This document shows positions 8,232 through 35,021 of a stretch of 42,543 bases of DNA, in pieces. The stretch lies in assembly GCA_029260165.1 (NCBI GenBank), contig JAJDDT010000025.1, positions 1-42,543 on the forward strand, written 5' to 3'. This DNA is from Phycisphaerae bacterium (GTDB lineage: Bacteria; Planctomycetota; Phycisphaerae; UBA1845). The first letter of the stretch is position 1. Each line of letters starts with the position of its first letter. The notes below the pieces were generated by a model. That model saw nothing but the letters and a program-made list of their open reading frames with translations, was not told the DNA's origin and did not search any database. The position numbers and the translations under genes are program-made.

Positions 8232-8354
8232 GATGGGCGGATTGTAGCGTTGACTGCCGGGTCGGGCTATTCGACTTTCGACGCAACGGGGTTTAGATTG
8301 TGCGGTCCTGCCACAAGTAGCAGAAAACATTCTCCGGGTATGGGAGCATTTTGG

Positions 8355-13791: not shown

Positions 13792-13795
13792 TGCT

Positions 13796-15127: not shown

Positions 15128-15133
15128 GGTGCA

Positions 15134-15613: not shown

Positions 15614-15647
15614 TGATGCATCTCATCCCGCGGCACGACGCCCACGC

Positions 15648-16043: not shown

Positions 16044-16082
16044 TTAACGTAAACCTCCATACTCTGGTTCAATTACAAATCG

Positions 16083-16589: not shown

Positions 16590-16735
16590 GGCAGTCGTCT
16601 CACGATTCCGCGCCCTCGATAACAGACAACCCGGGATGCAATCCTCCCGGAAACACAATTGCGGGGAGTGTAGTCATTCCACGTCGGGCAATCCAGCCCG
16701 AACCTTCGCAGATAGTCGGAATCGGGACGGCGGGT

Positions 16736-18513: not shown

Positions 18514-19065
18514 TCAACCGCCGGTCAGCACGACAACGTCCGAATTACCCCTCTTGAGTTCCGTTCTGACTGCACTCTTTCCCTTGTCCATCGTCAGCGT
18601 GCTTTGGGTCTCTCCACTTTTGATCACGATCGTGCCATTCGCATCAGCTCGGCCAAACTCGTCAAACGTCAGGACCGGTGTACCGCCAAAATCCGCGCTG
18701 TCGAGCTTCGCCTCATAACCACTCTTTCCCACGAGGTCCACACGATACGTCCCCTGGACTCCGTCGGGGGTGCGAACGTCGCTCATTCCGGTGATTTCGT
18801 AGAAATTTCCGGTCGGATCGAACGTGATGGTCACCGGCGTCTTCAGTCGGATGGCTTCACTGCGCGCCATGGACAGGTCGACCGTCAGACGACGATTCAG
18901 CGTTCGTACGCGATCCCGCTCGACATAGTTTCCCACGCGCGGACCCGCGACGGCCATCATGACCCCAACGATGCTCATCACGACCACGAGTTCCATGATC
19001 GTGTATCCTGATCGCTTTGCGCGTCGCGCTTTACAAATTGATGTTGCCATCATGATCCAATCCAT
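18514..19065 (-). CDS. GspH/FimT-like minor pseudopilin
   Basis: 183 residues from the first ATG; a TTG at 19080 overlapping the previous stop (TTGA) and ATGs at 19053/19050 are alternatives. The prepilin signal is RSGYTIMELVVVMSIVGVMMA: cleavage after the Gly, with Glu at position 5 of the mature protein (Y-T-I-M-E), then a hydrophobic helix. The mature domain (RLTVDLSMARSEAIRLKTPVTITFD) matches the GspH/FimT pattern. It would sit at the tip of the pseudopilus or pilus in the envelope and needs a prepilin peptidase, which is not encoded in this window. It is the last gene of the long minus-strand array. Confidence 0.82.
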   Translation of the reverse strand: MDWIMMATSICKARRAKRSGYTIMELVVVMSIVGVMMAVAGPRVGNYVERDRVRTLNRRLTVDLSMARSEAIRLKTPVTITFDPTGNFYEITGMSDVRTPDGVQGTYRVDLVGKSGYEAKLDSADFGGTPVLTFDEFGRADANGTIVIKSGETQSTLTMDKGKSAVRTELKRGNSDVVVLTGG

Positions 19066-19076
19066 CCCACCGTTTT

Positions 19077-20300: not shown

Positions 20301-20818
20301 GATCCACCGTCCGATCCGTCGTGAAGCAGGCGATATCCGAGGAGTTGAAAGCGTATCTTCTTATCACGATTGAGAACCATGACCCTGATTTTTTTAGCGG
20401 TCTTTTGCGTGAACGTCGGAGTGGTCGTGAGCGTGTCGGGTCGGACCCATTCGACGATCACCCGAACTCCGAGCTGGTGTTGAGAGGCGACCGGATGGGT
20501 GTTTCCGTTGATGTCAGCCATGATTGTCTCTTTCCACCCGTTGTAGTCATCCACATCATCGAAGTCCGCCCGCACCAGTTCCCCTGACTCGCGACCGATG
20601 GTGCCTGAGACGCCCGCGTCCTCGAACGGCTGGGTCATGATCTCGGACATCAACTCGGCGGCCAGTTCGCGCGCAATCTGCGTTTCGGCACCGATTTCGA
20701 CACCTCCGACGTACGAACCCATCATTTTCAGGGCAGCCAGGACCGCACCTGAGAGGATCGTGACAGAGATGGTGGCTTCGATGTAGCCGAAACTACGGTG
20801 TGATAACGGTCGGAACAT
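20297..20818 (-). CDS. GspI/PilV-like minor pseudopilin
   Basis: 173 residues. A prepilin-type N-terminus with RSFGYIEATISVTILSGAVLAALKMMG: Gly, then Y-I-E, so the acidic residue is nearer the cleavage point than the usual position 5, and a hydrophobic helix follows. The next stretch, ARELAAELMSEIMTQPFED, is typical of PilV/GspI proteins. The gene overlaps the end of the GspJ-like gene by 26 bases and the start of the GspK-like gene by 4. It would be a minor subunit of the pseudopilus tip. Confidence 0.72.
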   Translation of the reverse strand: MFRPLSHRSFGYIEATISVTILSGAVLAALKMMGSYVGGVEIGAETQIARELAAELMSEIMTQPFEDAGVSGTIGRESGELVRADFDDVDDYNGWKETIMADINGNTHPVASQHQLGVRVIVEWVRPDTLTTTPTFTQKTAKKIRVMVLNRDKKIRFQLLGYRLLHDGSDGGS

Positions 20819-21908
20819 TGGTCAGATCCACCCCTGAAAATTTCGCACAGTTCAGCGACCTTCCCGCGGTGCGGTAGGTTCGATCGGTGGCCTGCTGATT
20901 GACCGTGACCGCGAAGACTACATCTCTTACAAATCCCCGGGAAATGCTGCCACCCGCGACGGGCATCTCATAGTGCCCTTTGACCCGGACTTTCATGGAG
21001 GTCCCCGGGTCCTTCGACCATGTGAGACCCCAGTTGGCGGAAGTCGCCAGCATGGATGCTCCGTCGGTCGGAGCTGTGACGCAACGAACGTCCACGGTAT
21101 TCGCAGCCTTCTCCTCGTGAAGGCAGAACGCGACACTCTTCGACGGATCGAGGCCCGTGACTCTGGTGAAGCTCCTTGTTACCCAGGTGAATGCGTTCGT
21201 CGGAAGGTCGTCGTCGGTGATGGACGTACCAACCTCCAGTTGTTTCCATCCAGGTACACCGCTTGCGGTCGTTGGCTTGATGATTGGGCGCACACGTCCG
21301 ATTGAGGCACCGCTGCGTCTGATGCGACATGCCACTGAATCGATGGACCAGTTGATGGCTTCTGGTGGGAGGTCTGGAACGATAATCTGTGCGATCGGCG
21401 TTGCGACTCCAACAACGTTCGTCACTCTTGCTGTCCCCTTACCGACCTTGAGCAACGTCGATGACGGCGATTGGGGCGTGCCGCCCGCATCGGTCGTCTC
21501 CAGGACCTGCAGGTCATAGAACATCGAAAAGTCGGTGACGTCCGATACGGATTCATAGTCCAGGACACCGTTGATCAGCCGTTTGAGGGGGTCGCCGGTT
21601 GTTCCGGACCATTCATAGCGCAGGACGTCGTCGCTGCCGTCGCCGTCCACGTCCGGTGTTGTGAATTCAATCACCTTGTCCGACATCACCGACATATTGG
21701 TCGCAAACGCGATTTCGGACCGCAACTGGTGCAGTGCGATGGCGGACTCCGCGCGCGTCTTTTCCTCGAACTGCTTTTTGTTCCCCTGGAGCGTGATCAT
21801 CTGAATGGCTCCGGTGGTGGTTCCCATAACGATGGTCATGATCGTCATGGACAGAATCGTCTCGGCGAGCGTGATGGCCTTTCTGCGATTGGGGTTGGGT
21901 CGTCTCAT
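20793..21908 (-). CDS. GspJ/PilW-like minor pseudopilin
   Basis: 371 residues. After a basic start (MRRPNPNRRK) comes AITLAETILSMTIMTIVMGTTTG, a prepilin-like helix with Glu at position 5 after the Ala (A-I-T-L-A-E). This is followed by KTRAESAIALHQLRSEIAFATNM, as in GspJ/PilW. The remainder is beta-rich, about 300 residues, larger than standard GspJ (about 200). It is the first gene after the terminator that follows gspG, with 136 bases between the hairpin and its ATG, and it opens the minor pilin block. Confidence 0.72.
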   Translation of the reverse strand: MRRPNPNRRKAITLAETILSMTIMTIVMGTTTGAIQMITLQGNKKQFEEKTRAESAIALHQLRSEIAFATNMSVMSDKVIEFTTPDVDGDGSDDVLRYEWSGTTGDPLKRLINGVLDYESVSDVTDFSMFYDLQVLETTDAGGTPQSPSSTLLKVGKGTARVTNVVGVATPIAQIIVPDLPPEAINWSIDSVACRIRRSGASIGRVRPIIKPTTASGVPGWKQLEVGTSITDDDLPTNAFTWVTRSFTRVTGLDPSKSVAFCLHEEKAANTVDVRCVTAPTDGASMLATSANWGLTWSKDPGTSMKVRVKGHYEMPVAGGSISRGFVRDVVFAVTVNQQATDRTYRTAGRSLNCAKFSGVDLTNVPTVITP

Positions 21909-22113: not shown

Positions 22114-22605
22114 CTAATAGGTTGTGTAGGCAATACCGTCCGGGTCATTTGCGGTGTCCGCGTTTCCGCTGATGATACCGGTGGTCGCATCGTAGACCCA
22201 TCCGACACCGGAAAGCGAGGCAGCGCCCAGAGTGTCGCTGCTCTTGCCGTGCTTCGGTCCCTCGCCGACCTTGAGCTTGGGAACCGAGACCAGGTAGGGT
22301 CCGTATATAAACGCACCGACCTTGGTGGCGGACGTGCCCCCCGCGGCGTCCGTATACGTCGTCAATTCGGCGGCAAACCCCGCCAACGTCGGATACTTGC
22401 CGTTGTGTTCCGCTGCGTAAAGATCGATCGCGTTGCGGAGCACATAGAGATCCCCGCGCAGACCCGCCGACCCTGCACCCACAGCGCCTCGGCTGATGCG
22501 TGGGACGGCGATCGCGGCGATCACACCAATGATCACGATAACGATGACCAACTCGACCAGACTGAAGCCTCTGCGTGTGTTCTGTATTTTCATGTCCTTA
22601 CCCAT
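22114..22605 (-). CDS. gspG: Major pseudopilin GspG
   Basis: 163 residues. Start at 22605, or 22593 (second Met). The prepilin signal RRG|FSLVELVIVIVIIGVIAAIAVPRIS has the Gly cleavage point, the mature Phe and the Glu at position 5, the hallmark of the major pseudopilin. The body has LRNAIDLYAAEHNGKYPTL, typical of GspG, and ends in GWVYDATTGII, the C-terminal GspG-type strand. It would polymerise into the shaft of the pseudopilus. The terminator 32 bases downstream suggests that gspG is transcribed at higher level than the minor genes beyond it, as is usual for a shaft subunit. Confidence 0.92.
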   Translation of the reverse strand: MGKDMKIQNTRRGFSLVELVIVIVIIGVIAAIAVPRISRGAVGAGSAGLRGDLYVLRNAIDLYAAEHNGKYPTLAGFAAELTTYTDAAGGTSATKVGAFIYGPYLVSVPKLKVGEGPKHGKSSDTLGAASLSGVGWVYDATTGIISGNADTANDPDGIAYTTY

Positions 22606-22685: not shown

Positions 22686-23225
22686 TCATTTTCTGACCTG
22701 ATGTTCCAGTCCGGGGACCGATAATATGGCGGGCCCTTCCGGACAGGAGAATTCCACAGCCATTGCTCGTACGATGACCAATTCGCAGTCATCCAGAAAA
22801 TCACCAATGTTGAGCAATACCCCGTCCACCACGGCTATGGGCGCGCCGTCCCCGGTCATGACTCCCCCGAGTTGATGGGCTTGAATGAACCCTTCAATAC
22901 CGGTCGCCTCGGTCGCACGCACCCTGGACCGCGAGCCGTTATTGGCCAAACCGGACATGGCGGATTCGATTTCCCCGGTCATGGCAAAAGGATCGCGGAC
23001 GGGTGTCTCAGGCCAATGGTCCAAACCTGAGCGCGGGAATGGTGCGGCGGTGACCGAGATCATGAGTGCCTGTGGTGTGTTACCGACGGACGTGGTCACG
23101 TCGATCGATTGGGGATTCGCCGTCGCCGATTCGGGAGCGGACTTCAACACAAGCTGATCCAGAATCAAACCGAGCGCAGCAAAACCAAGCACCGCGGCAT
23201 AGATTTTTTTCTTTTTCCCATTCAC
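22686..23225 (-). CDS. PilP/GspC-like inner-membrane linker protein
   Basis: 179 residues. MNGKKKKIYAAVLGFAALGLILDQLVL is a short basic N-terminus with one membrane helix. After a disordered linker, TPVRDPF (about 75-81) and the domain around HQLGGVMTGDGAPIAVVDGVLLNIGDFLDDCELVIV have the beta-strand pattern of PilP and the GspC HR domain, which bind the secretin. No secretin gene is in the window. The start overlaps the PilO gene by 4 bases (ATGA). The order PilM, PilN, PilO, PilP supports the assignment, though sequence identity to well-known PilP is weak. Confidence 0.68.
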   Translation of the reverse strand: MNGKKKKIYAAVLGFAALGLILDQLVLKSAPESATANPQSIDVTTSVGNTPQALMISVTAAPFPRSGLDHWPETPVRDPFAMTGEIESAMSGLANNGSRSRVRATEATGIEGFIQAHQLGGVMTGDGAPIAVVDGVLLNIGDFLDDCELVIVRAMAVEFSCPEGPAILSVPGLEHQVRK

Positions 23226-23794
23226 GACGATTCGTCCACCGGTGTTTCGGGAATGGCGGAAAAGAAGCTCAGGGTCAGCTCAGCCAGTCGCATCGACTCC
23301 GCTTCGTCTCCAGCACCACCGGGCAACAGGTTGAGAAACGTCACATCCGCCCAATAGTCCTCGGATTCAAACTCCTTCAGGAACCTCAGCAGGTTTTGAA
23401 ACCCGCCCTCTGCCGACAGGCGATACCGAATCTCCAGCACGCCCGAGTATTTTACCTTCGACCAGGGCGACACACCGATCATGCGAACACCGTGGCGATC
23501 CGCCAGTGCGGTGATGTCTGCCAGTGTCTGCTCGATCGGGATTTCGTCGGGCAGATTTTCCCGATCCGTCGCCTGCCCGAACAGCCCGCGATGGACCGAT
23601 TTCTGTTGATCCAGACCATGTTCAAGATCGCGAAGTCGCGAGGTTGACACCTCCACGGCGACTGCCAGCGCATTCACCTGACTCGTCGCGGTATCGGGCT
23701 TGAGAAACGAATACCACGCAACCCACGAGACCATGGATATCACGGCCGTCGCACCGATCACGTCAATCAGAATGGTTGATTTCTCAGTCCGCAT
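23222..23794 (-). CDS. pilO: PilO-like inner-membrane protein
   Basis: 190 residues from the ATG at 23794, preferred over the TTG at 23806 that overlaps the pilN stop. One N-terminal membrane helix (STILIDVIGATAVISMVSWVAWYSFL), a coiled-coil-like stretch (SRLRDLEHGLDQQKSVHRGLF), then a ferredoxin-like domain with LEIRYRLSAEGGFQNLLRFLKEFES, the typical PilO/GspM core. It should dimerise with PilN to couple the cytoplasmic PilM ring to the periplasmic part of the machine. It overlaps the PilP-like gene by 4 bases. Confidence 0.75.
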   Translation of the reverse strand: MRTEKSTILIDVIGATAVISMVSWVAWYSFLKPDTATSQVNALAVAVEVSTSRLRDLEHGLDQQKSVHRGLFGQATDRENLPDEIPIEQTLADITALADRHGVRMIGVSPWSKVKYSGVLEIRYRLSAEGGFQNLLRFLKEFESEDYWADVTFLNLLPGGAGDEAESMRLAELTLSFFSAIPETPVDESS

Positions 23795-23799
23795 ACCTG

Positions 23800-24429
23800 T
23801 TACCAACTACACCGCACATGAAAGCGAATCGCCTTGCCTGTGGGAAGGCTTTCCTCCGTAGCGTTCGTCATCCGGACGTTCGCAAACATCTTCCCGGACT
23901 CCAGTTCACGAACAAAATCGTAGATCGACTTTTGTCTCAAGGCATAACCCTGGATGTCCATCTCTCGCGGAGCATCCAGCGTTACAATCGACGCGGCGCT
24001 GTTCTGATCGTTTGAACCCCTGGTCTTGCCGATCGGGGATATCTCCCGATCACCCGCCGGTGCCATTGACGGAACGGTGGCAAGCGACGTCATCCAGATC
24101 GCATCGGGCATGGCTGACGTCACCGTTGCGATCAATCCGGACCATGTGCGTTTGGCCCGCAGGGCATTTGCCCGCGCCAGTTGCGCCCGAATCGTCGCCA
24201 CCTCGACATCCAGCACCCTGGTTTGCTGTTGTGCGGAGGCGATCAACTGCTCGTTCAGTTCTTTCTCGGTCGTCAACGCCCGCACCAGATGTCGCCGGGA
24301 ATATTCCAGCCATACCGGAACCGACCCCACCGCAATCGATGTCATCAACACGAAAAACCACTGCCGCAAGCGACGCCGTCTCCGACGTCCAGCCACGACC
24401 GACTTGTTGATCAGGTTGACAGCGATCAT
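23800..24429 (-). CDS. pilN: PilN-like inner-membrane protein
   Basis: 209 residues. The start MIAVNLINKS resembles the short conserved INL-type tail of PilN, which docks into PilM. A basic patch (RRRRRR) precedes one membrane helix (FFVLMTSIAVGSVPVWLEY), then a coiled coil (LTTEKELNEQLIASAQQQTRVLDVEVATIRAQLARA) and a ferredoxin-like domain ending near the C-terminus. This is the architecture of PilN/GspL-periplasmic. The gene overlaps pilM by 1 base (TGATG). Confidence 0.78.
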   Translation of the reverse strand: MIAVNLINKSVVAGRRRRRRLRQWFFVLMTSIAVGSVPVWLEYSRRHLVRALTTEKELNEQLIASAQQQTRVLDVEVATIRAQLARANALRAKRTWSGLIATVTSAMPDAIWMTSLATVPSMAPAGDREISPIGKTRGSNDQNSAASIVTLDAPREMDIQGYALRQKSIYDFVRELESGKMFANVRMTNATEESLPTGKAIRFHVRCSW

Positions 24430-25556
24430 CAGTCGTTCACTCCGATGGCCAGCCCGATGGCCGCTGCATAATCACCGATTGAATCGCCCGTCCCGGTGTC
24501 GGGCGAGAAGGATCCACCCGAACCGCGGACCAGATCACCGATCAGCTCCACGTCGATACCAAGCCTGGATTTCAGGAACTCCGCCAATCCGGACATGGGC
24601 GCACCGCCGCCAACCAGGAACATGTCACCGGCGGCTCTGTCGGGGTAACAGTGCATCGCATATCCGTACGAACGCTCCACCTCCGAAACGACCAGTTCCA
24701 GCTCGGCCCGGAGAATGTCGAAGATCATCGACGCAATTTCCTTCTCCGGACTCGCATCGTCCGAATCCGGTTGCGCGGTGTCGATACCGTATTGGCATTT
24801 GTGCACTTCAGCCGCTTCGGGCGAAATTCCCAAGGACTCGGCGATCGACTGGGACCAACTGTTGCATCCGGAACCCAGCGTTCGTACCAGCAGTGGCACA
24901 TCCCCAGCGCACAAAACGAGCCTCAACGATCGCCTCCCCACGTCAAGCATACCCCATATCCCGTCCGGATCATCTCCCCGGCACCTTCGAATCAGCGACC
25001 CCAGTCGTGACAACGCGCAAATCGTCGCGTCAATCTGCTCGCAGTCCATCCCCATACCGTGAACAATATCGGTGGCGGCCTGAACGTGTGTCGCGGGCGC
25101 AACCACGCCAATCGCGGTGATCCGCGACATTTTCGTGGGTGGCACCTTCCAATAATCCGTCACCGTGTTCGTCTCGGTTGAATTCATCACGCGTTCGAGT
25201 TCCCATCGAACCGCGTTGGCAAACTTGTCGCCCATCCCGCCCTGAGCATCCAGCTCCAGCGAATGCAGTTCAACCTCCGGTGTCGTCAAGCCAGCCACCA
25301 CGCGGTACCCCTGAAACCCATGCTCGCGCAACGTGTCCCTGAGACGAACCGAAAACCCTTCGCTTACCGTGATCCCTGTTTCCGAATCACGACGCTTGAT
25401 GGTCGTCAACCGCCTGACGACCCAGTCACGCTCTTCACGGCGCTCCAGTTGTGCAGCCCGAACAACCGTCGGACCGATGTCCAGCCCGATCGGTGAGACC
25501 AGCGTCCTGCGATCGACGATTTTTTGGAGCAGTGTTCCGACCAACGTCACACCCAC
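24429..25556 (-). CDS. pilM: PilM-like actin-fold ATPase
   Basis: 375 residues. An actin/HSP70-type ATPase seen in SPIGLDIGPTVVRAAQLERR (first phosphate loop), a second phosphate segment in WGMLDVGRRSLRLVLCAGDVPLLVRTLG, and VGGGAPMSGLAEFLKSRLG (adenosine motif) near the C-terminus. It forms the cytoplasmic ring that links the motor ATPase to PilN. It lies 3 bases after the gspF gene's stop and overlaps pilN by 1 base. Finding PilM in place of a GspL cytoplasmic domain marks the machine as type-IV-pilus-like in its inner-membrane complex. Confidence 0.85.
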   Translation of the reverse strand: MGVTLVGTLLQKIVDRRTLVSPIGLDIGPTVVRAAQLERREERDWVVRRLTTIKRRDSETGITVSEGFSVRLRDTLREHGFQGYRVVAGLTTPEVELHSLELDAQGGMGDKFANAVRWELERVMNSTETNTVTDYWKVPPTKMSRITAIGVVAPATHVQAATDIVHGMGMDCEQIDATICALSRLGSLIRRCRGDDPDGIWGMLDVGRRSLRLVLCAGDVPLLVRTLGSGCNSWSQSIAESLGISPEAAEVHKCQYGIDTAQPDSDDASPEKEIASMIFDILRAELELVVSEVERSYGYAMHCYPDRAAGDMFLVGGGAPMSGLAEFLKSRLGIDVELIGDLVRGSGGSFSPDTGTGDSIGDYAAAIGLAIGVND

Positions 25557-25559
25557 CTT

Positions 25560-26780
25560 CTACAACGCGCTCGTCATGTCGAACATCGGCATGAACAACG
25601 AAATCGCGACAAACCCCACAACCACACCCATGACGATCAGAATCAGCGGCTCCAGCAGCTTGGTCACCGTCCCGAGCAACTCCGTATTGTCTTCATCGAG
25701 AATGTCCGCCACATAGGTCATGGCTTCACCGAGCTGTCCGCTCTCCTCACCCGTACGAACAGCCTGACAAATGTACGGTGCGACCATCCCCGACGATTCC
25801 AGCGCTCTGCTGAGGTTTCCACCGGACGTGATTTCCAGCTCCATCGCCTCGTAGAGCTGCTGATAGGAATGATGAAACGTCACCCCGCGAACCAGCCCGA
25901 TGGCTTCCAGAATACCAACCCGCGCACCGACCAGCATACCGAGCACGCGGAACGTCTCACCCTGAATCAGCCCCGACATCAACCTGCCCACCACGGGCAG
26001 GCGCATGGCTGTCTTCAACAACAGCCTCTTGCCGCCTTCGGTGGTGACCAGGGCAACGATTCCACCAGTCACGATCGCTGCTGCCCCGAGCACGACGTAC
26101 CATTGCGTTGTCGCAAACTTTGCTGTTGCCAGAAGGGCCTCCGTTGTCACCGGCAAATCAACGCCCAGATTTTTGAACATCTCGTTAAACCGGGGCAACA
26201 CGAAAAACATGAGAACCATCACGATGCAACTCGAAAGCATCGTGAGCAGTGCGGGATAAGCCGTCGCACCAACGACCTTGTTGCGCATTGCCCGTCGTTT
26301 GCCCACGATTTTCGATAGCCGTTCAAACATCGGTGACAAGGTAGCCGTCGCCTCACCCGCCGAAACGACAGCGCAATAACCCGAGTCAAACGTCCTGGGA
26401 AAATGTCGCAACGAGTCCGCCAGGGTTGTGCCTTCCTCAAGGTCCATGATGATATGGCGAATCATCCGGACGTGGGATTCCTTCGTAAACTGGCGGGCAA
26501 TCGTCTGCAACGCCTGCACAATTCCGCTGCCCGCGGTCAGAAGCATCGCCATCTGTCGTGTGAGCATCACAAGTTGCTTGATCGACAGTGCGACATTTTT
26601 ATCAACCGCCGTATCCGAAGCGGACTGCGTCGGGTGATCGAGCGAGAGCTTCTCTTCGATGTGCGTGACCGTCAGATTTTTACTTCGAAGCGTGTCAATG
26701 GCTGACCGAACATCCGACGTTTCCATCGTTGCGCTTTGCGACTGGCCCTTTTCGTCGACCGCTTCGTATGTGACGATCAT
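25560..26780 (-). CDS. gspF: GspF/PilC-type inner-membrane platform protein
   Basis: 406 residues. Two copies of the T2SSF four-helix domain: one around FTKESHVRMIRHIIMDLEEGTTLADSLRHFPRTF and one around IQGETFRVLGMLVGARVGILEAIGLVRG...SGGNLSRALESS. Three membrane helices are seen, two in the centre and one at the C-terminus (LLEPLILIVMGVVVGFVAISLFMPMF, the family's standard ending). It is the membrane platform on which the motor ATPase rotates subunits. It overlaps gspE by 4 bases (ATGA), so the two are coupled. Confidence 0.93.
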   Translation of the reverse strand: MIVTYEAVDEKGQSQSATMETSDVRSAIDTLRSKNLTVTHIEEKLSLDHPTQSASDTAVDKNVALSIKQLVMLTRQMAMLLTAGSGIVQALQTIARQFTKESHVRMIRHIIMDLEEGTTLADSLRHFPRTFDSGYCAVVSAGEATATLSPMFERLSKIVGKRRAMRNKVVGATAYPALLTMLSSCIVMVLMFFVLPRFNEMFKNLGVDLPVTTEALLATAKFATTQWYVVLGAAAIVTGGIVALVTTEGGKRLLLKTAMRLPVVGRLMSGLIQGETFRVLGMLVGARVGILEAIGLVRGVTFHHSYQQLYEAMELEITSGGNLSRALESSGMVAPYICQAVRTGEESGQLGEAMTYVADILDEDNTELLGTVTKLLEPLILIVMGVVVGFVAISLFMPMFDMTSAL

Positions 26781-28534
26781 ACAACCACCTCCTCATCTGC
26801 CCCGACCGGCTGATCTTCGAGCGACGGTCCGCCGCGCTCTGAACGGGTCACGCGCAGGACCTCCTCGAGCGAAGACTCACCGCGATCGACCACATCCAAC
26901 GCCTTGTCACGCAGTGTCCGCCAACCGGATTTTTTCAGGTGTTGGCGCAAATCGCCTTCGGGGGCACGTTTCTGAATCAAATCCGCCAAAGGCTGATCCA
27001 TCGGCATGATTTCATAAATACCGATACGACCGCGGAAACCGGTCATGTGACATTTTGAACATCCTTCGCCCTTCTGGAAAAGCTCGTTTTTGCGATGTCC
27101 CCAGCCGACCGATTCCAACAGTTCAGGCGAAGGGTAGTAGGACGCCTGACAGGCGGGACACAGCTTGCGCGGAAGACGCTGAGCCATGAAACCGATGACC
27201 GCCGACGATATCAGATAAGGCTCGATTCCCATGTCCAACAGGCGAGCCACCCCACCCGGACAGTCGTTCGTGTGCAGTGTGGACAGTACAAGGTGACCCG
27301 TGAGCGCTGCCTGAATCGCGACCCGGGCGGTGTCCTCATCGCGCATCTCGCCGATCATGACGATGTCCGGATCCTGTCGCAGAATCGATCGCAACGAGCG
27401 TGAAAATGTCAGCCCGACGGCGTCATTCACCTGAATCTGCGAAATCATCGACAACTGATACTCAACGGGATCTTCAACCGTCACGATGTTCTTGGTCGAA
27501 TCGTTCAGCAATTCCAGCGCCGAATACAGGGTCGTCGTCTTGCCGCTGCCCGTGGGACCGGTCACACACAACAACCCATAAGGACTCTTGAGCATCCCCT
27601 GCACAATTTGCAGGTCGTCGCCGAGCAATCCAAGGTCTTCCAACTCGAAACTCAGATTGCTCTTGTCCAGAATTCGAATGACGATCTTCTCACCCAGCAC
27701 CGTAGGCATGCTGGAGATACGCAGATCGATATCGCGACCGTCGGCAATCAGGTGCACCCGACCCTCCTGCGGAAGTCGTTTCTCGGCGATGTCCATCTTC
27801 CCGATGACCTTGATGCGCGACACGATCGACGCGTGCATGCCCTTGGGTGGCTTGAAAAACACACGAAGCTGACCGTCGATGCGGTAACGAATGTGTGTTT
27901 CCTTGCGATCGGGCTCGATGTGAATGTCGCTCGCACCGTCACGCAACGCAGACAACACCACGAGATTCACGAGATTGATCACCGGACTGCCGTCAACCAT
28001 CTGGTCGAGGTCCGTGATCCCGGACTCCTCCTCAACCTCAAGATCGTCGATCCGGACGTCGCTCTCCTCGATCGACGCCATGAAGGAATCGACCGTCACC
28101 TCTTTCGCGAGGTATTTCTGCTGAAACTCGTCGATGTTCTGCTCAAGCGCCAGAACCGAACGAACACGGCAGCCGGTCAATGACTGAATGCGATCCAGGG
28201 TCGGCAATGACTGCGGGTCCGCCATCGCCACCGTCAGCTCGTTGTTCACCCTAAACATCGGCAGCACCTTCAAACGCTCTGCCTCATCCTTCGGGATACA
28301 CTTGGCTACCTTTGGATCAATCAACCCGTGGCGGAGCACGACACCCTTGACATTGAGACGCTTGCCAAGCGCATTCACCAGCGAAGCCGACGTGATCGCA
28401 CCGACGTTCAGCAAGGCCTCGCCGAGTCGATCTCCGGACTTCTTCTGGTTTGCGAGCGCTTCCTCAAGCTGATCCGACGTGATCAACTGATCAGCCATCA
28501 ACTGCTCGCCAAGTTTTAACCCACGCTTGATCAT
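26777..28534 (-). CDS. gspE: GspE/PilB-type motor ATPase with tandem MshEN cyclic-di-GMP motifs
   Basis: 585 residues. Walker A GPTGSGKT (326-333), the Asp box before it, Walker B-like IVMIGEMRDEDT, the His box LVLSTLHTND, and two CxxC pairs (CPAC, CSKC) for zinc are all present, so the hexameric secretion/pilus motor is intact. The N-terminus carries two 24-residue copies of the MshEN pattern RLGxx..G....L...L..Q. Copy 1 starts at K7 and ends at Q30, with Lys for Arg and Gln for Gly. Copy 2 runs from R36 (RLGEALLNVGAI) to position 59, with Arg for the final Gln. MshEN domains bind cyclic-di-GMP, so this ATPase may be directly controlled by it; that is inference. A cyclic-di-GMP phosphodiesterase is encoded three genes upstream. 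Confidence 0.93.
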   Translation of the reverse strand: MIKRGLKLGEQLMADQLITSDQLEEALANQKKSGDRLGEALLNVGAITSASLVNALGKRLNVKGVVLRHGLIDPKVAKCIPKDEAERLKVLPMFRVNNELTVAMADPQSLPTLDRIQSLTGCRVRSVLALEQNIDEFQQKYLAKEVTVDSFMASIEESDVRIDDLEVEEESGITDLDQMVDGSPVINLVNLVVLSALRDGASDIHIEPDRKETHIRYRIDGQLRVFFKPPKGMHASIVSRIKVIGKMDIAEKRLPQEGRVHLIADGRDIDLRISSMPTVLGEKIVIRILDKSNLSFELEDLGLLGDDLQIVQGMLKSPYGLLCVTGPTGSGKTTTLYSALELLNDSTKNIVTVEDPVEYQLSMISQIQVNDAVGLTFSRSLRSILRQDPDIVMIGEMRDEDTARVAIQAALTGHLVLSTLHTNDCPGGVARLLDMGIEPYLISSAVIGFMAQRLPRKLCPACQASYYPSPELLESVGWGHRKNELFQKGEGCSKCHMTGFRGRIGIYEIMPMDQPLADLIQKRAPEGDLRQHLKKSGWRTLRDKALDVVDRGESSLEEVLRVTRSERGGPSLEDQPVGADEEVVV

Positions 28535-28561
28535 CGTCCGGTCAACCTGTTTCCGATTCGC

Positions 28562-28897
28562 CTACAGGAAGCTGCGTACTGCCCCATCGACACTCTCAAA
28601 AAACTGAAACCGATCACCCAAACCGGTCAGTTCCAGAATCTCGCGACACGTCGGTGTCACACCGGACACCTTCAACTGCGCACTGCGAGAGCGAAGCTCG
28701 TCGGCGACCTGAACGAAACCCTCCAGCGCGATGCTGTCCAGATATCCGACGTCCTTCATATCCACGACGACACGCGGATTCCGCGAGCTGATCGCGGTAC
28801 GGACCGCCCCCAGAAACTGCTCAGCCGCGTCGTCCAGAAGCGCCTCACTCGGTGCCAACACATCAACCGTGCCCACCGTCTGTCGGGATATTTTCAC
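28562..28897 (-). CDS. STAS-domain anti-sigma-factor antagonist-like protein
   Basis: 111 residues forming a single STAS domain. VVVDMKDVGYLDSIALEGF places a phosphorylatable Ser at 55, where SpoIIAA-type antagonists are switched by a kinase. The GTG start has AGGAGG 7 bases upstream. It overlaps the GAF/GGDEF-like gene by 4 bases (GTGA) and precedes gspE by 27. No partner kinase (SpoIIAB-like) or PP2C phosphatase is encoded in the window. It could respond to the histidine kinase path or act as a scaffold; the partner is unknown. Confidence 0.87.
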   Translation of the reverse strand: MKISRQTVGTVDVLAPSEALLDDAAEQFLGAVRTAISSRNPRVVVDMKDVGYLDSIALEGFVQVADELRSRSAQLKVSGVTPTCREILELTGLGDRFQFFESVDGAVRSFL

Positions 28898-30207
28898 GTC
28901 CTCGCCTCCTGGGCAACCCCGGATAACTCAACGTCCGAAACCACCGACAAGTCCTTTTCCCTCGCCGCGTGACACAGGGCAACCGACTGCCCCAACAGGC
29001 TGTCCACGTTTGGCTCACCCGCACCACTTCCCGCAACCCCGCAACGAATGCGAAGAGCAACGCCCGTTCCGCGATCGCTCAGTAACCTGCTCACGGCGTC
29101 ATTGACCATCTCGGTCAACTGCCTCGCAATCAACGTCGCCAATGCGGAATCAACCCGACGCAACAACACCACAAACCGCGAATCGTCAAAACGCCCAAGC
29201 CGATCATCAGGCCTGACCCGCTCCAACATCGATTGCCCCACGAGCCTCACGACCTCGTTGGCCATGTCCCACAAATGCAAATCCAGCAACCGTCGGTGAC
29301 CCTCAATCACCAACACCGCCAACGCAACAGGCTCTCCCGATCGATAACACGACGCCGCCACCTGTCGCGATGCCGTCATAAACGAATCACGCGTCAACAC
29401 ACCCGACACATGATCGCAATCCGTCGCCATCCGACTTCGGCAGACCTCCGCCAACGTCCCCCAAAACTGACCGACCAACAAATCGATCGTACGCAGAAAC
29501 GTCCGTGAACAATCCTCGCCGGACAACCCACCCACCGACACCACACCAATACTTCTGCCTCCCCGACGAATCGCAAAACACCACTGCGGCGGCATCGACG
29601 ACTCATTCGCCAGCCGTCGAACCAGATCACCCTGCGACGCATCGTCGGCGTAATACGAATTCCCCGTCATAGCCACATGACCCATGATCCCCGCACGCGA
29701 CGAAATCGATTGACCTTCACCATCGCCCACCGCCATGCGCATCGGTACCAGAACATCACCCTCCGCCAGAATGCGGAAAGGCCTCACATGTGTCGCCCCA
29801 CACACATCATGCAACGTCCGCCGAACAAACTCATCAAAAGAGGCCCACGGATCCTCGTCATTCCGTTTCGATTCAAGCCAACCGTCGAACTGCGTGATCG
29901 TATGCGACACGCACGCTGTCTCGCTCAACCCGTGATCATCGCGATTTTCAAGCCCCTTCCGATGTCCAGCCCGCGCCCGCGACGACCAGTCCGCCAACCC
30001 GACAATCGCCGCCGCACCCGCCAGCAACGCCGAAAACAAACTCGCATCCGCCCAGAACGGGGTCCGCGTCGTTACCTGCACGATGACGACCCAATACAAC
30101 GCGCACATAATCCCAAGCCACGTCGCACGCGACTGCCCGATCAATCGACCACCAATCCCCGCACCAACCACCACCGGAAACCAGGGAAGCATGACGTCCA
30201 TAATCAT
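28894..30207 (-). CDS. Membrane GAF protein with degenerate GGDEF domain
   Basis: 437 residues. Two membrane helices lie within the first 75. A GAF-like region spans about 120-255 (FRILAEGDVLVPMR..., AGIMGHVAMTGNSYYADDAS, GGRSIGVVSVGGLSG). A GGDEF-fold region runs from about 265 to 420 (DHVSGVLTRDSFMTAS is the usual D..TG(L)..R start). Where a cyclase reads R-x-GGDEF this protein reads R-F-DDSRF (339-345), so the diguanylate cyclase site is lost. It is therefore probably a sensor or binding protein, not an enzyme. The start overlaps the HD-GYP stop by 1 base (TGATG). Confidence 0.78.
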   Translation of the reverse strand: MIMDVMLPWFPVVVGAGIGGRLIGQSRATWLGIMCALYWVVIVQVTTRTPFWADASLFSALLAGAAAIVGLADWSSRARAGHRKGLENRDDHGLSETACVSHTITQFDGWLESKRNDEDPWASFDEFVRRTLHDVCGATHVRPFRILAEGDVLVPMRMAVGDGEGQSISSRAGIMGHVAMTGNSYYADDASQGDLVRRLANESSMPPQWCFAIRRGGRSIGVVSVGGLSGEDCSRTFLRTIDLLVGQFWGTLAEVCRSRMATDCDHVSGVLTRDSFMTASRQVAASCYRSGEPVALAVLVIEGHRRLLDLHLWDMANEVVRLVGQSMLERVRPDDRLGRFDDSRFVVLLRRVDSALATLIARQLTEMVNDAVSRLLSDRGTGVALRIRCGVAGSGAGEPNVDSLLGQSVALCHAAREKDLSVVSDVELSGVAQEART

Positions 30208-31583
30208 CAGCCGGCGCTCCCCTGTCCGACAGGCTCTTCGACAACAACCGCCATACCCCGTTCAGTCTCCACCGACGTTCCGTTATCACCAGAAACCAGA
30301 CACAACGTTGCGGAGGTATTCCCGATGTCGTTAAACGCATCCGGATTGTCTTTGTAAAACCGCTCGATCATCGCCACAAAACGTCCGCACAACCGCGCAT
30401 CCACGACCGTGCCAGCCTCCTCCTTCAATATCTCGATCGCTTTTTCCCATGGAAATGCTGCCCGATACGATCGCGTCGTCGTCAACGCGTCAAAAATATC
30501 CGCGATCTGAATCACCCGTCCGTCCAGGGGAATATTCTCCCCGGTCAACCCGAACGGATAACCCTTTCCGTCATACCGCTCATGATGATGCAACACACCA
30601 TCCACACACGGACGCATGTACGAATTGTCACGAATAATCTCGTAACCACGCATCGGATGCTCTTTGATGTGCGCGAATTCCTCGTCCGTCAGCTTGCCCT
30701 CTTTTTTCAACACATCATCGCGAATCCCGATCTTCCCGACGTCATGCAACAACGCCGACCACTCCAGCAGCCGCAACGCCCCCGCGTCGTAACCGATCTC
30801 TTTCGCCAAAAGCCTCGCGTAATAACCGACGCGCGTGGAGTGTCCCGATGTGTAGGGATCCTTCTGATCGACGGCGGTGACGAGCGTTCGCACCGTCTCG
30901 GTGTTGGTGTTCTGCAATTCGCGCACAAGCCGAAAATTCTGAATCACGTCACCGCAAAACGACGACAGCGATTCAAGAACCTGCATGTCACCGCTTTCCC
31001 ACTCCCGATCATCACCAGGCTCCCGCTTCCGCGTCAGCACACTGGCCACAACAAATACATCACCGGCAAAAATCGGTGAGATCAACGCTTCCTGCGAACC
31101 ATCCGGCGACCCGACGACCTGCTCACAACGCTCATCCCGCGACTGCTTCAGTCCATCTTCAAGCCATGACTCCCACTCAAAACCCGCAGCAGGTTCGCCC
31201 GTCGCAAGGTGACACCTGAAACCATCACCCCAGGCGGTGAAAATATCATCCTCGAAATACGTCGCGCGCAGGCTCTCCATCAACCTCGCGACAACCTCAC
31301 TCTCGCTCTCCAGAGTCAGCATGTTACGCGTCACTTCAAACACGATCCCAAGCTGCTCATAGGACCGCATCAACGCGTTGGCCATCCCTTCCTGCTCGCG
31401 CGACATGCGGTCAACCTGCTCGCTCAACACCTCCAGCGCAGCCTCGACCACTGCACCGCCGGGAACCGATTTACCCGGGCAGGAACCGCCCAAAAGCGCA
31501 CCACGCAACTCGGAAACAACCTCACACGCAGAAAGGTCTTCCAGTCTTTGTCGATCGCCGGATGTCTCTACCCTGTCAGCCAA
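30207..31583 (-). CDS. GAF-HD-GYP cyclic-di-GMP phosphodiesterase
   Basis: 458 residues from a TTG with AGGAG 6 bases upstream (AGGAGTTCCGTTG). A coiled-coil lead (about 45-80) and GAF-like region (80-225) precede a complete HD-GYP domain: H248, HD at 280-281 followed by VGKIGI, H309, and HHERYDGKGYP (H333, H334, G339, GYP 341-343), then DIFDALTTTRSYR. All metal ligands known for the family are kept, so it should linearise cyclic-di-GMP. It is cytoplasmic. It lies between a stand-alone receiver gene and the degenerate GGDEF gene, in the same run as the MshEN motor. Confidence 0.92.
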   Translation of the reverse strand: MADRVETSGDRQRLEDLSACEVVSELRGALLGGSCPGKSVPGGAVVEAALEVLSEQVDRMSREQEGMANALMRSYEQLGIVFEVTRNMLTLESESEVVARLMESLRATYFEDDIFTAWGDGFRCHLATGEPAAGFEWESWLEDGLKQSRDERCEQVVGSPDGSQEALISPIFAGDVFVVASVLTRKREPGDDREWESGDMQVLESLSSFCGDVIQNFRLVRELQNTNTETVRTLVTAVDQKDPYTSGHSTRVGYYARLLAKEIGYDAGALRLLEWSALLHDVGKIGIRDDVLKKEGKLTDEEFAHIKEHPMRGYEIIRDNSYMRPCVDGVLHHHERYDGKGYPFGLTGENIPLDGRVIQIADIFDALTTTRSYRAAFPWEKAIEILKEEAGTVVDARLCGRFVAMIERFYKDNPDAFNDIGNTSATLCLVSGDNGTSVETERGMAVVVEEPVGQGSAG

Positions 31584-31613
31584 CGGAACTCCTGCCTCAA
31601 AAATCGCCCATCG

Positions 31614-31997
31614 CTAACCCGTGTTGCCAGCCGCCCCAGCCCCCAGTTGCCGCTCAATATCCCGAATCAGCCGTGACGGCGAAAAGGGTTTCGGATGGAG
31701 ATCGACCCCGAATTCCTCCAACTGAGACCGGACGCCCGCCTGGTCCGCACGCGAACTGAGCAGGATCATCGGCGTGTTACACGATCGCTCCTGCCGCAAC
31801 CACCGAACCAGCTCCAGACCCGTCACACGCGGCATGTTGACGTCCGAAACAATCAGATCGAAATCGCCTTCAGCGAGAAACTCCTGAGCAACCGCGCCGT
31901 TTTTCGCCTCGGTCACGTCATGGCCTGACTTCGTAAGCCACATGCACATGACCCGTATGATGTGGGCATCATCCTCAACAACCAAAATGCGCGCCAT
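31614..31997 (-). CDS. Stand-alone receiver (response regulator) protein
   Basis: 127 residues from the ATG at 31997, with AGGAG 9 bases upstream; the GTG at 32000 is an alternative. It is a receiver domain with no output domain. The acidic pair in VVEDD, the phosphoacceptor D52 in IVSDVNMP, Ser after ILL, and K103 in HPKPFS are the standard set. It follows the histidine kinase gene closely and is its likely partner. With no DNA-binding part, it probably acts by protein contact, perhaps on the HD-GYP or the motor complex. Confidence 0.9.
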   Translation of the reverse strand: MARILVVEDDAHIIRVMCMWLTKSGHDVTEAKNGAVAQEFLAEGDFDLIVSDVNMPRVTGLELVRWLRQERSCNTPMILLSSRADQAGVRSQLEEFGVDLHPKPFSPSRLIRDIERQLGAGAAGNTG

Positions 31998-32003
31998 CAC
32001 ACA

Positions 32004-33884
32004 TCACTCCTGCTTCGCGGAGACCGGCAACGAAGATGTAAGCTCCGCCAACGGCAACCGCACGATAAATGTCGATCCTTCGCCGCGCACGCTCATCAGT
32101 TCAATATCCCCGCCATGACGCCTGGCAATTTCCCGCGCCGTCGTCAACCCGATTCCCGTCCCCTCGATGTCCGACGTCTCCGGGGCAGACCCGCGCTGAA
32201 ATTTCTTGAAAATCGCTTCGTGGTCCGCGGGATCAACCCCAATCCCCGTGTCCTTCACCGAAACCATCAGCTCATCCGGATGCACCTGACACGACACAAA
32301 AACAAACCCCCCATCGGGCGTGTACTTCAAGGCATTGCCCAGAAGGTTGTTCATCACGACCGCAAGCTTGTCACGGTCACCTCGAAGCACCGGCAGCTTC
32401 GAGGGCAGCTTCATCTGCATATCGATCTTCTTGTCGTCCGCCAATCCGCGAATATCCTGAACAGCATCCTCCAGAAGCGCCCGAAGATCGACGTTGTGCA
32501 TTTCAAGCTGAATCGAGCCAACCTCAAGTTGCGACATGCTCAAAACATCATCAATCAAACGCGACAGACGGCGGGTTTCCTTCGTGATAACGTTGTAACA
32601 TTCCGTAATCATCTGCGGATCATCAAAAACACCGCTCGACAACGTCTCCGTGTACGCACGAATGTTGGTCAACGGCGTCCGAAGCTCATGCGTTACCTGC
32701 GCGACGAATTCAGACGACGAACGCTCCGCCCGTATCTGCTGACTAATGTCCGAAATCGTCACAACACACTCACCTCGTCCCACATGCTTCCCCGCAGGCA
32801 TCACGCGAACACGGTAGTGCGTCTCACCATCATCCTCCTCAATCACCGATGACGAAGCCCGCACAGCACCCGACTCATCAATCGCTTCGCGAATCAGACC
32901 CACGACCGACCCGGCTGTCTCAGTATCCGTCAATTCCTCCAGCGATCTCCGCTTCACAGGCTCGTCCGGCAAACCCAGCAACCGTCTCGCTGCACCATTC
33001 GCATACGACAGCGATTGACCGTTTTGCACATGGAGCACGCCGTCAGGAAGCACGTCGACCACCTCGTCCAGATCTCCCTTGCGCGACTTCGTCAGAACCG
33101 CCTTAAGCTCGTTCTCCGCCGTCGCTCGTTTCGCACCCACCTCGAGATCGTGCGCAAAGTCAATCAGCTTGTTCCACTGAATACCCAATGCGTCCGACGC
33201 ATCCGCCAAACGCAATACCTCCAGATCCTTCTCAACCTGCTCACCACGACTCAACAGCGATTCCGAAATGCGACCCATATGACGATAATGACGACCAACC
33301 CAGCGCGCAATCATCGCAACACAACCAACAAGAACCGCCGCCAAAACCAGCACCGACGCCGGAACCGACAAAACCCCGGACCCCACGTCCGTCAACGCAA
33401 CACCATCCAGGTACCATTTCCCCTTCCCCACCACGTCCGCCAACGATGCCTGAAAATGATACGCATTCCCCCCGGCGTCCTTATCCCCGTCAGCCCGACC
33501 ACGAACACCGTGGTCTGCCGCGGAGACGCTCAGGCCAACCTCGCACAGCTTCCCGATCTGCTCAACACGCGTCGACGCCACAATCAACCGACCGTCGTCA
33601 ATCAATCGCAGTTCCCGCCACTTCCCACCGCGTACAAATTCGCGCAACACCCGCTGATAAACCGACGCGTCTCCATCAGGCAATTCCCCAATCCGCGACG
33701 ACAGCATCCTCAAACCATGCTCGGTTGACCCACGCCACGACGATACCTGTCGATCCGCAGCCGCGCGTGTGCTCAGAATCGACGTCAACGGAACACTTGC
33801 AGCCACCAGCAGAAGCAGCGCAACCCCCGCCAGCCTCGGCCCCGCCCTGGACGAAAACAGCTTTTTCAATCGATCAGGCTTCAT
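32004..33884 (-). CDS. Membrane sensor histidine kinase with PAS domain
   Basis: 626 residues from MKPDRLKKLF; an upstream extension to 33941 is open but unlike the family. Two membrane helices flank a periplasmic sensor (about 15-35 and 185-205). A coiled stretch, then a PAS domain (VLPDGVLHVQNGQSLSYANGAARRLLG) lead to HisKA with H399 in VAQVTHELRTPLTN, and a HATPase_c domain with NNLLGNALKYTPDGG, KDTGIGVDP and GTGIGLTTAREIARRHGG. It is intact. The sensed signal is unknown. It is the first gene of the long minus-strand run. Confidence 0.92.
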   Translation of the reverse strand: MKPDRLKKLFSSRAGPRLAGVALLLLVAASVPLTSILSTRAAADRQVSSWRGSTEHGLRMLSSRIGELPDGDASVYQRVLREFVRGGKWRELRLIDDGRLIVASTRVEQIGKLCEVGLSVSAADHGVRGRADGDKDAGGNAYHFQASLADVVGKGKWYLDGVALTDVGSGVLSVPASVLVLAAVLVGCVAMIARWVGRHYRHMGRISESLLSRGEQVEKDLEVLRLADASDALGIQWNKLIDFAHDLEVGAKRATAENELKAVLTKSRKGDLDEVVDVLPDGVLHVQNGQSLSYANGAARRLLGLPDEPVKRRSLEELTDTETAGSVVGLIREAIDESGAVRASSSVIEEDDGETHYRVRVMPAGKHVGRGECVVTISDISQQIRAERSSSEFVAQVTHELRTPLTNIRAYTETLSSGVFDDPQMITECYNVITKETRRLSRLIDDVLSMSQLEVGSIQLEMHNVDLRALLEDAVQDIRGLADDKKIDMQMKLPSKLPVLRGDRDKLAVVMNNLLGNALKYTPDGGFVFVSCQVHPDELMVSVKDTGIGVDPADHEAIFKKFQRGSAPETSDIEGTGIGLTTAREIARRHGGDIELMSVRGEGSTFIVRLPLAELTSSLPVSAKQE

Positions 33885-34117
33885 CAGCGCGCGGTTTCCC
33901 TGTACATCCCCAAACCGACCTCCCAACAGACGAACACACATCCGTCCGTCCGTTTCATCGTGTCACAGAACACCCCCCTTGATTACCACCCCCCGCACAA
34001 ACCCCTATCGGACCCCCAAAACCCCGCAATAAGACGCCTGTCCGAGAATACGCACTACCGCCCATCTCATTCGCTCGTTGTCTTCTCAGCCCAACCTCAC
34101 TAAAACAGGCACCTGAT

Positions 34118-34669
34118 ATGGGACCAACCTCACCGACAAACCCGCCCGCCGACCGAACATGGACTCTCAAGCCATTCCACGACAACCATGCAGGCGTCGT
34201 TGCAGGATGGGTAAAATCCGAAACCGACCTGCTCTGGCTCGCACCCCGAACAAAAGCACCGCTCACCCCACAAAAGGTCATCGCATGGGCAGGACCGAGA
34301 AATATCAGCCTGCTCCTCTTCTCAAATCAACAAAACGACCCCGTCGGATATGGCGAGCTGAATCAAATGCGAAACGACCCGCACCACTACTGGCTAGGCC
34401 ACATCATCATCAACCCTGACATCAGACGTCAGGGCATCGGTTTGGCGTTCGTAAAAAAACTGCTGACGATCGCGTTCAACGATCACAACGCAGGACGTGT
34501 CTCACTCATCGTTTTCCCCGAAAACGAACCCGCCGTGAAATGCTACGAAAAAGCGGGGTTCCTTCCCACCCGGGTCGAAACCCACAATTTCAAATCCAAC
34601 GGCAAGACATGCCGAATGCTTCGAATGGACCTCGACAGACCGCCGCCTCAACCTCTGATCACCGATTAG
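34118..34669 (+). CDS. GNAT-family N-acetyltransferase
   Basis: 183 residues. The acetyl-CoA-binding motif A is RRQGIGLAFVKKLL, preceded by the strand WLGHIIINPDI and followed by LIVFPENEPAVKCYEKAGF, the standard motif B. Acetylates an amine on an unknown substrate; the RimJ/RimI type is likely by shape. The 35-residue N-terminal part is Pro-rich. It points away from the histidine kinase gene and its stop overlaps the stop of the convergent small gene by 2 bases. No strong ribosome binding site was seen. Confidence 0.85.
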   Translation: MGPTSPTNPPADRTWTLKPFHDNHAGVVAGWVKSETDLLWLAPRTKAPLTPQKVIAWAGPRNISLLLFSNQQNDPVGYGELNQMRNDPHHYWLGHIIINPDIRRQGIGLAFVKKLLTIAFNDHNAGRVSLIVFPENEPAVKCYEKAGFLPTRVETHNFKSNGKTCRMLRMDLDRPPPQPLITD

Positions 34670-34890
34670 TTCGTGCCCGTCGGCACAGGCTCGATGACCG
34701 CAAACACGCCCTCAACAAGGCCTGTCAGAATCGACAACACACCCTGCTCGACACTGCTGCCCGCAGCCGTACGAAACTGTGTCCCAAGCTCACCCGCACA
34801 ACTGTTACCGAAAACAGTCGCAGGACCACACACCCCAATAGCCAACACCAGAAACTTCCGACCCAGACGACCTGTCAATTGACGACCCAT
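34666..34890 (-). CDS. Small exported hypothetical protein (74 aa)
   Basis: Start at 34890 with CAGGAG seven bases upstream, a better site than most in the window. The product begins MGRQLTGRLGRKFLVLAIGVCG, a basic segment and hydrophobic run suggestive of a signal peptide, and continues to a hydrophobic C-terminal half (VLSILTGLVEGVFAVIEPV). Two cysteines (about 21 and 31) could pair. No family was recognised. The frame is open further upstream, but that longer reading runs antisense to the transporter gene. Its stop overlaps the stop of the GNAT gene. The function is unknown. Confidence 0.55.
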   Translation of the reverse strand: MGRQLTGRLGRKFLVLAIGVCGPATVFGNSCAGELGTQFRTAAGSSVEQGVLSILTGLVEGVFAVIEPVPTGTN

Positions 34891-35021
34891 CGATGAACTC
34901 CTGAACATGCATACCGCGAGCAACTCCGCCACAAACTCTTCCACCATTATCGGCCACACCATCCCGCCAGTTGCAGCCTTCCTGTCCACCAAACACGCTC
35001 GCGCAAAAACTGCGCCACCCA

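Follow-up and report, generated by a model that had tools for sequence, protein, structure and literature searches.

Five regulator genes are packed into a compact unit directly ahead of a gspE/pilB-type motor gene on contig JAJDDT010000025.1 of a Phycisphaerae bacterium (assembly GCA_029260165.1), of which we analyzed a stretch of 42,543 nucleotides (the window). The genes encode a membrane histidine kinase (HK), a stand-alone receiver (REC), an HD-GYP protein, a GGDEF protein with a degenerate active site (pseudo-GGDEF) and a STAS-only protein. Conservation of this gene order reaches far beyond the genus, and the STAS gene is the most constant neighbor of the motor. We favor, at a probability of about 0.55, the reading that the genes form a motor-dedicated operon joining phosphorylation to cyclic di-GMP (c-di-GMP) signaling, in which STAS would be the constant partner of the motor, the pseudo-GGDEF protein and the motor would read c-di-GMP, and HD-GYP would be a removable eraser or docking partner. 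Local c-di-GMP control of a single machine is much discussed and hard to prove where many enzymes share one pool; because eraser, reader, kinase, receiver and motor stand here in one old gene unit, such control becomes testable gene by gene.

A compact regulator-motor unit recurs across planctomycetes

The five genes all lie on the minus strand, as do the other features of the unit given below. In order of transcription they are HK (32004–33884), REC (31614–32000), the HD-GYP protein (30207–31583), the membrane GAF and pseudo-GGDEF protein (28894–30207) and the STAS-only protein (28562–28897), followed by the motor ATPase gene, gspE (26777–28534). The original prediction, made from the window alone, described a tight block running into gspE, and the layout bears this out: junctions range from −4 to +30 bases (HK/REC +3, REC/HD-GYP +30, HD-GYP/GGDEF −1, GGDEF/STAS −4, where negative values are overlaps), gspE follows STAS after 27 bases and in turn overlaps gspF by 4 bases. 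A strong promoter or terminator between STAS and gspE, named beforehand as an observation that would speak against a single unit, did not appear in sigma70-type and terminator scans. The 27-base gap holds no terminator-like match, the sigma70-type scan of positions 24000–35000 gave no minus-strand match, and the one terminator-like match nearby lies inside the STAS gene (28628–28608, minus strand), ~46 bases before its end. Terminator-like matches were at shuffle level overall (14 vs. a mean of 12.4), and we rejected a separating element on these grounds. The likely site of the operon promoter is the 233-base divergent gap facing a GNAT gene (33885–34117), which itself has no sigma70-like match. 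Since the genes upstream of the kinase vary between genomes in the 43 relatives' loci described below, the kinase marks the 5′ end of the unit; an alternative kinase start is possible at 33941.

For comparison with relatives we searched 298 genomes of the class with the pseudo-GGDEF protein, of which 190 matched at 0.001 and 43, including the window's own, at E 1e-20 or better. The other 42 strong genomes and one with a weaker match (G224) supplied 43 fetched loci, in which the order HK-REC-HDGYP-GGDEF-STAS-gspE-gspF-pilM recurs by tblastn. The motor is present in 42/42 of these loci, kinase and receiver in 40/40 of those long enough to show them (L044, L051 and L052 being cut), and HD-GYP in 41/42 (absent in L079); STAS was named by tblastn in 41 of the 43, with L074 cut and L082 having STAS by profile. 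Selection of the loci by the GGDEF protein makes the count of that protein itself meaningless. A further locus fetched for a weak GGDEF match (L222) has neither kinase nor motor.

A second sample consisted of 30 further genomes of the class, picked for having no clear match to the GGDEF protein and searched with motor and kinase. A kinase match lies no more than ~3 kb upstream of the gspE match, on the same contig and strand, in 27/30; two of the exceptions (G012, G248) have kinase and motor on separate contigs, the kinase contig ending inside the unit, and no kinase-motor pairing was seen in the third (G066). A kinase-profile search was too permissive (276/294 genomes), and only high-scoring places were followed, 20 at first and then 7 more; in 15 of the 20 the motor lies near the kinase.

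A quick motor tree splits clade A, which contains the window's motor, from clade B (Shimodaira–Hasegawa-like approximate likelihood ratio test support 99), and the unit occurs in both. Clade B has the arrangement HK-REC-HDGYP-STAS-pilB(-pilT)-pilC, which in L202 is preceded by genes for a secretin and a TPR protein. Other planctomycete classes show HK-REC-HDGYP-GGDEF-STAS-motor (L191, L193) or HK-REC-STAS-motor (L189, L192, L195), and a clade-A-type sublineage (f8, f18 and f20) has HK-STAS-motor only in each of the 8 loci seen (L169–L172, L205, L228–L230). Conservation of the arrangement in relatives points to more than chance, and regulators have stayed before the motor gene even in distant relatives, suggesting control of the motor itself by the cell. 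The check that had been proposed for the window, conservation in related planctomycetes, thus came out in favor of a unit, with the order kept in the related loci showing it. Regulators beside unrelated genes, the finding that was to argue against it, were absent from the related loci; outside them there is one set without a motor. This set (L207, G008:C51) is HK-REC-HDGYP behind pseudopilin-like genes, with neither STAS nor motor after it, and is the sole such case seen.

STAS directly precedes the motor in most loci

Among 82 motor loci, STAS precedes the motor in all 81 that have upstream sequence, and its profile match ends 5–392 bases (median 60) before that of the motor. The loci were mostly picked via pseudo-GGDEF or kinase, so that counts of those two are biased upwards and STAS counts are least biased. 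When loci were instead picked by the best gspE match per genome, ignoring the kinase, STAS was directly upstream in 26/29, as judged by a profile that was trained on part of the loci, including loci from some genomes of this sample. In the window's own genome STAS stands directly upstream of 2 of the 6 motors scored, this gspE and the pilB of contig C90. The latter belongs to a second STAS-pilB-pilT-pilC set (G000:C90, L085:7121–11479), in front of which there is no kinase, receiver or HD-GYP.

The protein has a STAS fold (PF01740, 53.8 bits) with an Asp-Ser phospho-acceptor motif (D54 S55, codons at 28733–28738) that is kept in 42/42 aligned sequences and in 26/26 across clades. It resembles anti-sigma antagonists (TIGR00377, 46.9 bits, below the cut-off of 53.45). 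The unit points to STAS as a motor partner, and our literature searches, confined to open-licence papers in PubMed Central (PMC), returned none that places a STAS protein at motors of the PilB or GspE type.

Signaling residues of the kinase, receiver and HD-GYP protein are conserved

The kinase combines 2 hydrophobic segments with PAS, HisKA and HATPase_c domains (Pfam), and its phospho-acceptor His is kept in 40/40 aligned sequences. The receiver, 128 amino acids long, matches Response_reg only and has no DNA-binding output domain by Pfam; its phospho-Asp53 and Lys104 are kept in 41/41. Having no output domain, it would have to act by contact.

In the HD-GYP protein (Pfam HD_5/HD; PF13487, 118.8 bits) the motifs read HDVGK and HHERYDGKGYP, and the tested residues (HDxGK, the second His, HHExxxGxGYP) are invariant in 41/41 or 42/42 sequences. 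The site is therefore intact as originally described, and the HD dyad and GYP motif mark the protein as a putative c-di-GMP phosphodiesterase; a GAF domain, which had also been ascribed to it, was not detected there by Pfam, and its N-terminal half is unassigned. Of the 78 loci with a visible kinase, 61 have HD-GYP placed between it and the motor. The other 17 lack it there and retain kinase, STAS and motor; a divergent HD-GYP is next door in 3 of them (L194, L206, L224), and in L229 one lies ~4 kb further upstream. The sole fetched relative without HD-GYP in the unit (L079, G031:C10) has also lost the RxxD motif of its pseudo-GGDEF protein (QGVE), and its motor keeps the first c-di-GMP motif of its MshEN domain; as a single event, this co-loss is a hint only.

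The pseudo-GGDEF protein has lost its active site and retains its I-site

By Pfam the fourth protein carries a GGDEF domain (34.3 bits) and a GAF_2 match just under its cut-off (27.6 vs. 28.6 bits). A crude hydropathy profile gives about three hydrophobic N-terminal stretches, which make it probably membrane-bound. We aligned 41 rows, the window and 40 of the 43 loci (leaving out L052 and L074, which are cut, and L051, which is near-identical to L049 and L050), finding GGDEF in 40 and GAF_2 in 14 of them (E 0.01). The GG[DE]EF active site of cyclases is lost: it reads DDSRF in the window (residues 341–345, codons at 29173–29187) and is canonical in 0/41 rows. In contrast, both R and D of the I-site motif RxxD (RPDD in the window, residues 332–335, codons at 29203–29214) are kept in 39/41 rows, the exceptions being L078 and L079, and they rank ~11th and 6th of 437 columns by conservation. 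The earlier label of a dead GGDEF thus fits the active site and not the protein, which, given the retained I-site, is better read as a c-di-GMP receptor. Residue 344, the position of the catalytic Glu of GGDEF domains, is Arg in 38/41 rows; such conservation of the dead site itself may reflect a new role.

Membrane segments, GAF and degenerate GGDEF together match the architecture of PelD-type receptors, and we regard the protein as a putative member of this type by architecture. PelD of Pseudomonas aeruginosa and Bacillus cereus binds c-di-GMP via RxxD in a degenerate GGDEF domain (PMC7112168, in part). Descent from PelD was considered and rejected, with no chain named PelD among 59 PDB profile matches and no PelD model among the Pfam and NCBIfam matches. 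A structure model of the protein, built from a two-sequence alignment, reached a mean predicted local distance difference test score of 37 and was not used.

In a phylum-wide search (392 genomes) with the profile of the pseudo-GGDEF protein, the best match outside the order scored 91.8 bits among the matches listed, vs. 548 for the window's protein. The protein is absent from G216 (L182), which shares a genus with G204 and G220, and in f13 loci (L206, L223, L224) it is degenerate and without canonical RxxD. Two loci of a different planctomycete class show the opposite combination to that of the window: there the gene separating HD-GYP from STAS (L191:9753–11552 and L193:3650–5470) encodes a GAF-GGDEF protein whose GGEEF is intact and which has no RxxD. 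In a GGDEF-domain tree with very long branches these two fall among ordinary cyclases, apart from the pseudo-GGDEFs. By profile they score 33 and 39 bits, lower than any of the 36 ordinary GGDEF domains compared (46–82 bits); 29 of the 36 were found with a related profile, which favors them, and the 7 from the window's own genome still score 46–62 bits. Decay in place of an active cyclase within Phycisphaerae, which L191 and L193 could suggest, is not claimed here, as independent recruitment fits equally.

GGDEF matches number 8 in the window's genome, this one being the only one on the contig; of the 7 others, 6 have an intact GG[DE]EF. The statement that no active cyclase is encoded nearby is accordingly right for this contig and does not extend to the genome. 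With all 6 intact cyclases off the contig, the ligand would come from cyclases encoded elsewhere, and the system probably reads a wider c-di-GMP pool.

The motor carries a likely c-di-GMP-binding domain

The motor matches T2SSE and MshEN in Pfam, and the MshEN motif pair lies at 28358–28516. MshEN is defined by two 24-residue (R/K/L)LGxx...LxxxLxxQ motifs joined by a 5-residue linker (PMC5013675 and PMC11731258, both in part). In the window motif I has 6/6 key residues, motif II has 5/6 and the linker is 5 residues long; motif I is complete in 39/42 motors (the window and 41 of the 43 loci). The NCBI model for the c-di-GMP motif, NF053729, scores 55.3 bits against a cut-off of 38. Since most other motors of the genome pass the same model (see below), binding of c-di-GMP by this motor is no more than likely.

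Working model and alternatives

In the reading that we favor, the kinase would sense a membrane or periplasmic cue and phosphorylate the output-less receiver. Supplied by cyclases encoded elsewhere, c-di-GMP would be read at two points, the pseudo-GGDEF I-site and the motor MshEN domain, both suggested by their retained sites; HD-GYP would clear the ligand at these readers, and the receiver would control its activity or docking. STAS would be the last link, binding the motor or its membrane platform in a state set by the Asp-Ser site, and may thereby couple the kinase branch to extension or secretion. Some relatives offer natural test cases: G031 lacks HD-GYP, G216 lacks pseudo-GGDEF, and others have no regulators but kinase and STAS.

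Several observations weigh against this scheme. STAS is missing from 3 of the 29 gspE-chosen loci (G012, G066, G130), and the scanned genes of the operon include no serine kinase or phosphatase for it. Several lineages have HK-STAS-motor only, so the c-di-GMP parts are dispensable. Of the first 20 kinase places, L198, L200 and L207 show no motor following the kinase, and L190 and L197 are cut by contig ends. As for the two candidate readers, position 363 of the pseudo-GGDEF protein, which we take to be that of the second I-site Arg (R390 of PleD, placed by eye), is Gln in 22, Lys in 17 and Glu in 2 of 41 rows, and the profile search of PDB sequences matched FimX and ordinary GGDEF domains and no PelD-named chain. 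MshEN motif II is complete in only 1/42 motors, the last Gln being Arg in the window. Furthermore, 4 of the 5 other motors of the genome, used as a control, also pass NF053729 (38.7 to 50.8 bits), and the MshEN family match was consequently dropped as proof of c-di-GMP binding. Finally, contacts and activities in the scheme are all inferred from sequence.

One alternative, which we consider unlikely, would make HD-GYP and pseudo-GGDEF mainly docking partners, as in an RpfG-like scaffold: kinase and receiver would promote an HD-GYP/GGDEF/STAS complex gripping the motor, with c-di-GMP turnover secondary. There is a precedent in Xanthomonas RpfC/RpfG: the HD-GYP protein there binds GGDEF proteins, the cyclase activity of which is dispensable, and a PilZ adaptor connects it with the pilus motors PilT and PilU (PMC3749722, in part). 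The loss of GGDEF catalysis in 41/41 rows from a protein that is nevertheless kept agrees with such a role, as does the adaptor-sized STAS protein adjoining the motor. However, a pure scaffold would need neither the invariant metal and GYP residues of HD-GYP nor the kept I-site, and HD-GYP persists in genomes without pseudo-GGDEF (L181, L182, L187).

A somewhat less likely alternative is partner switching on transcription, with STAS binding an anti-sigma factor encoded elsewhere and its adjacency to the motor reflecting co-expression only. Its likeness to TIGR00377, below cut-off at 46.9 against 53.45 bits, and the kept Asp-Ser motif would fit, and STAS-only switches do act on a type III secretion system (BtrV) and in a hormogonium motility locus (HmpV) (PMC8256260, in part). 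Yet Pfam scanning of the window's operon genes turned up neither a kinase of the RsbW type nor a PP2C phosphatase nor a sigma factor (a result confined to that operon, as profiling of relatives covered just the families of the unit and no search extended to other parts of the genome), and tight STAS-motor linkage in two motor clades points to the motor.

The original proposal of a dedicated switch that simply lowers c-di-GMP at the machine holds up as regards dedication, in conserved order and residues, and is improbable as regards lowering: the HD-GYP residues are intact and no second GGDEF domain lies on the contig, but HD-GYP is removable, being absent between kinase and motor in 17/78 loci, and STAS is lacking in none of the 78, which leaves a simple sink unsupported, and STAS, REC and the retained I-site would go unexplained.

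Beyond the operon itself, we tentatively raise a wider possibility, with the odds somewhat against it: planctomycete STAS may serve PilB/GspE-type motors widely as a clutch whose setting depends on phosphorylation. In that case the pairing of STAS with the motor would be older than the divergence of the two motor clades and of several classes; the kinase, the receiver, HD-GYP and pseudo-GGDEF would be interchangeable inputs to it, and the clutch would form a class of motor regulator distinct from control by PilZ, FimX and MshEN.

Comparison with known systems

In PilS-PilR a histidine kinase gene adjoins pilus motor genes, as it does here; the receiver of the present unit differs in having no DNA-binding output domain. 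The closest system in working is RpfC/RpfG, which shares with the unit a kinase, an HD-GYP protein, a GGDEF protein, a small adaptor and a pilus motor (PMC3749722, in part). It differs in that REC and HD-GYP are separate proteins in our case, the adaptor would be STAS and not PilZ, and the genes stand in one unit with an extension-type motor.

For STAS the closest counterparts are HmpV/HmpW/HmpU and BtrV/BtrW/BtrU, in which a STAS-only protein with a phospho-serine site is likewise tied to a motility or secretion machine (PMC8256260, in part). Unlike them, the operon of the window yielded neither a serine kinase of the RsbW type nor a PP2C phosphatase, and its STAS is linked to a HisKA kinase and HD-GYP.

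PelD shares GAF, a degenerate GGDEF with intact RxxD, membrane segments and a gene encoded with the machine that it would control (PMC7112168, in part). The candidate receptor described here differs in standing with a motor machine and not a polysaccharide synthase, in the unconserved second I-site Arg, and in matching no PelD-named PDB chain. With MshE and PilF the unit has in common a gspE/pilB-type ATPase with an N-terminal MshEN (or GSPII) domain, the motifs of which begin with K or R in agreement with the extended consensus (PMC11731258, in part). Differences are that in the window the turn Gly of motif I is Gln and the last residue of motif II is Arg, that the regulators are in the same operon, and that binding is here a prediction.

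Machine genes and other genes of the window

Downstream of gspE follow gspF, pilM, pilN, a PilO-like gene, a gene at the PilP position and pseudopilins, so that motor, platform, PilM/N/O (PilO below cut-off) and pseudopilins of a type IV pilus or type II secretion-type machine are present. The gspF/pilC-type inner-membrane protein (25560–26780) and PilN (23800–24429) match Pfam, PilM (24429–25556) is above its Pfam and below its NCBIfam cut-off, and the PilO-like protein (23222–23806) is below the Pfam cut-off. The protein at the PilP position (22686–23225) has no Pfam match, and many relatives have a similar gene at the same place. The main pseudopilin (22114–22605) matches N_methyl; four genes at pseudopilin positions follow, at 20793–21908 (N_methyl below cut-off), 20297–20818 and 19077–20300 (no Pfam match for either) and 18514–19080 (N_methyl above cut-off, and GspH too). 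The genome has 5 secretin matches, none of them on this contig.

Directly after the pseudopilin genes comes a protein with S1 RNA-binding repeats (16736–18112), with a similar neighbor in L042 and L044. Downstream of it, the minus strand carries genes for two ketoacyl synthases, two FabA-like dehydratases and an acyl carrier protein (12487–16658), together resembling a small cluster of the type II fatty-acid or polyene kind. A very long open reading frame at 8172–12464 has three amidohydrolase-type stretches in a single chain.

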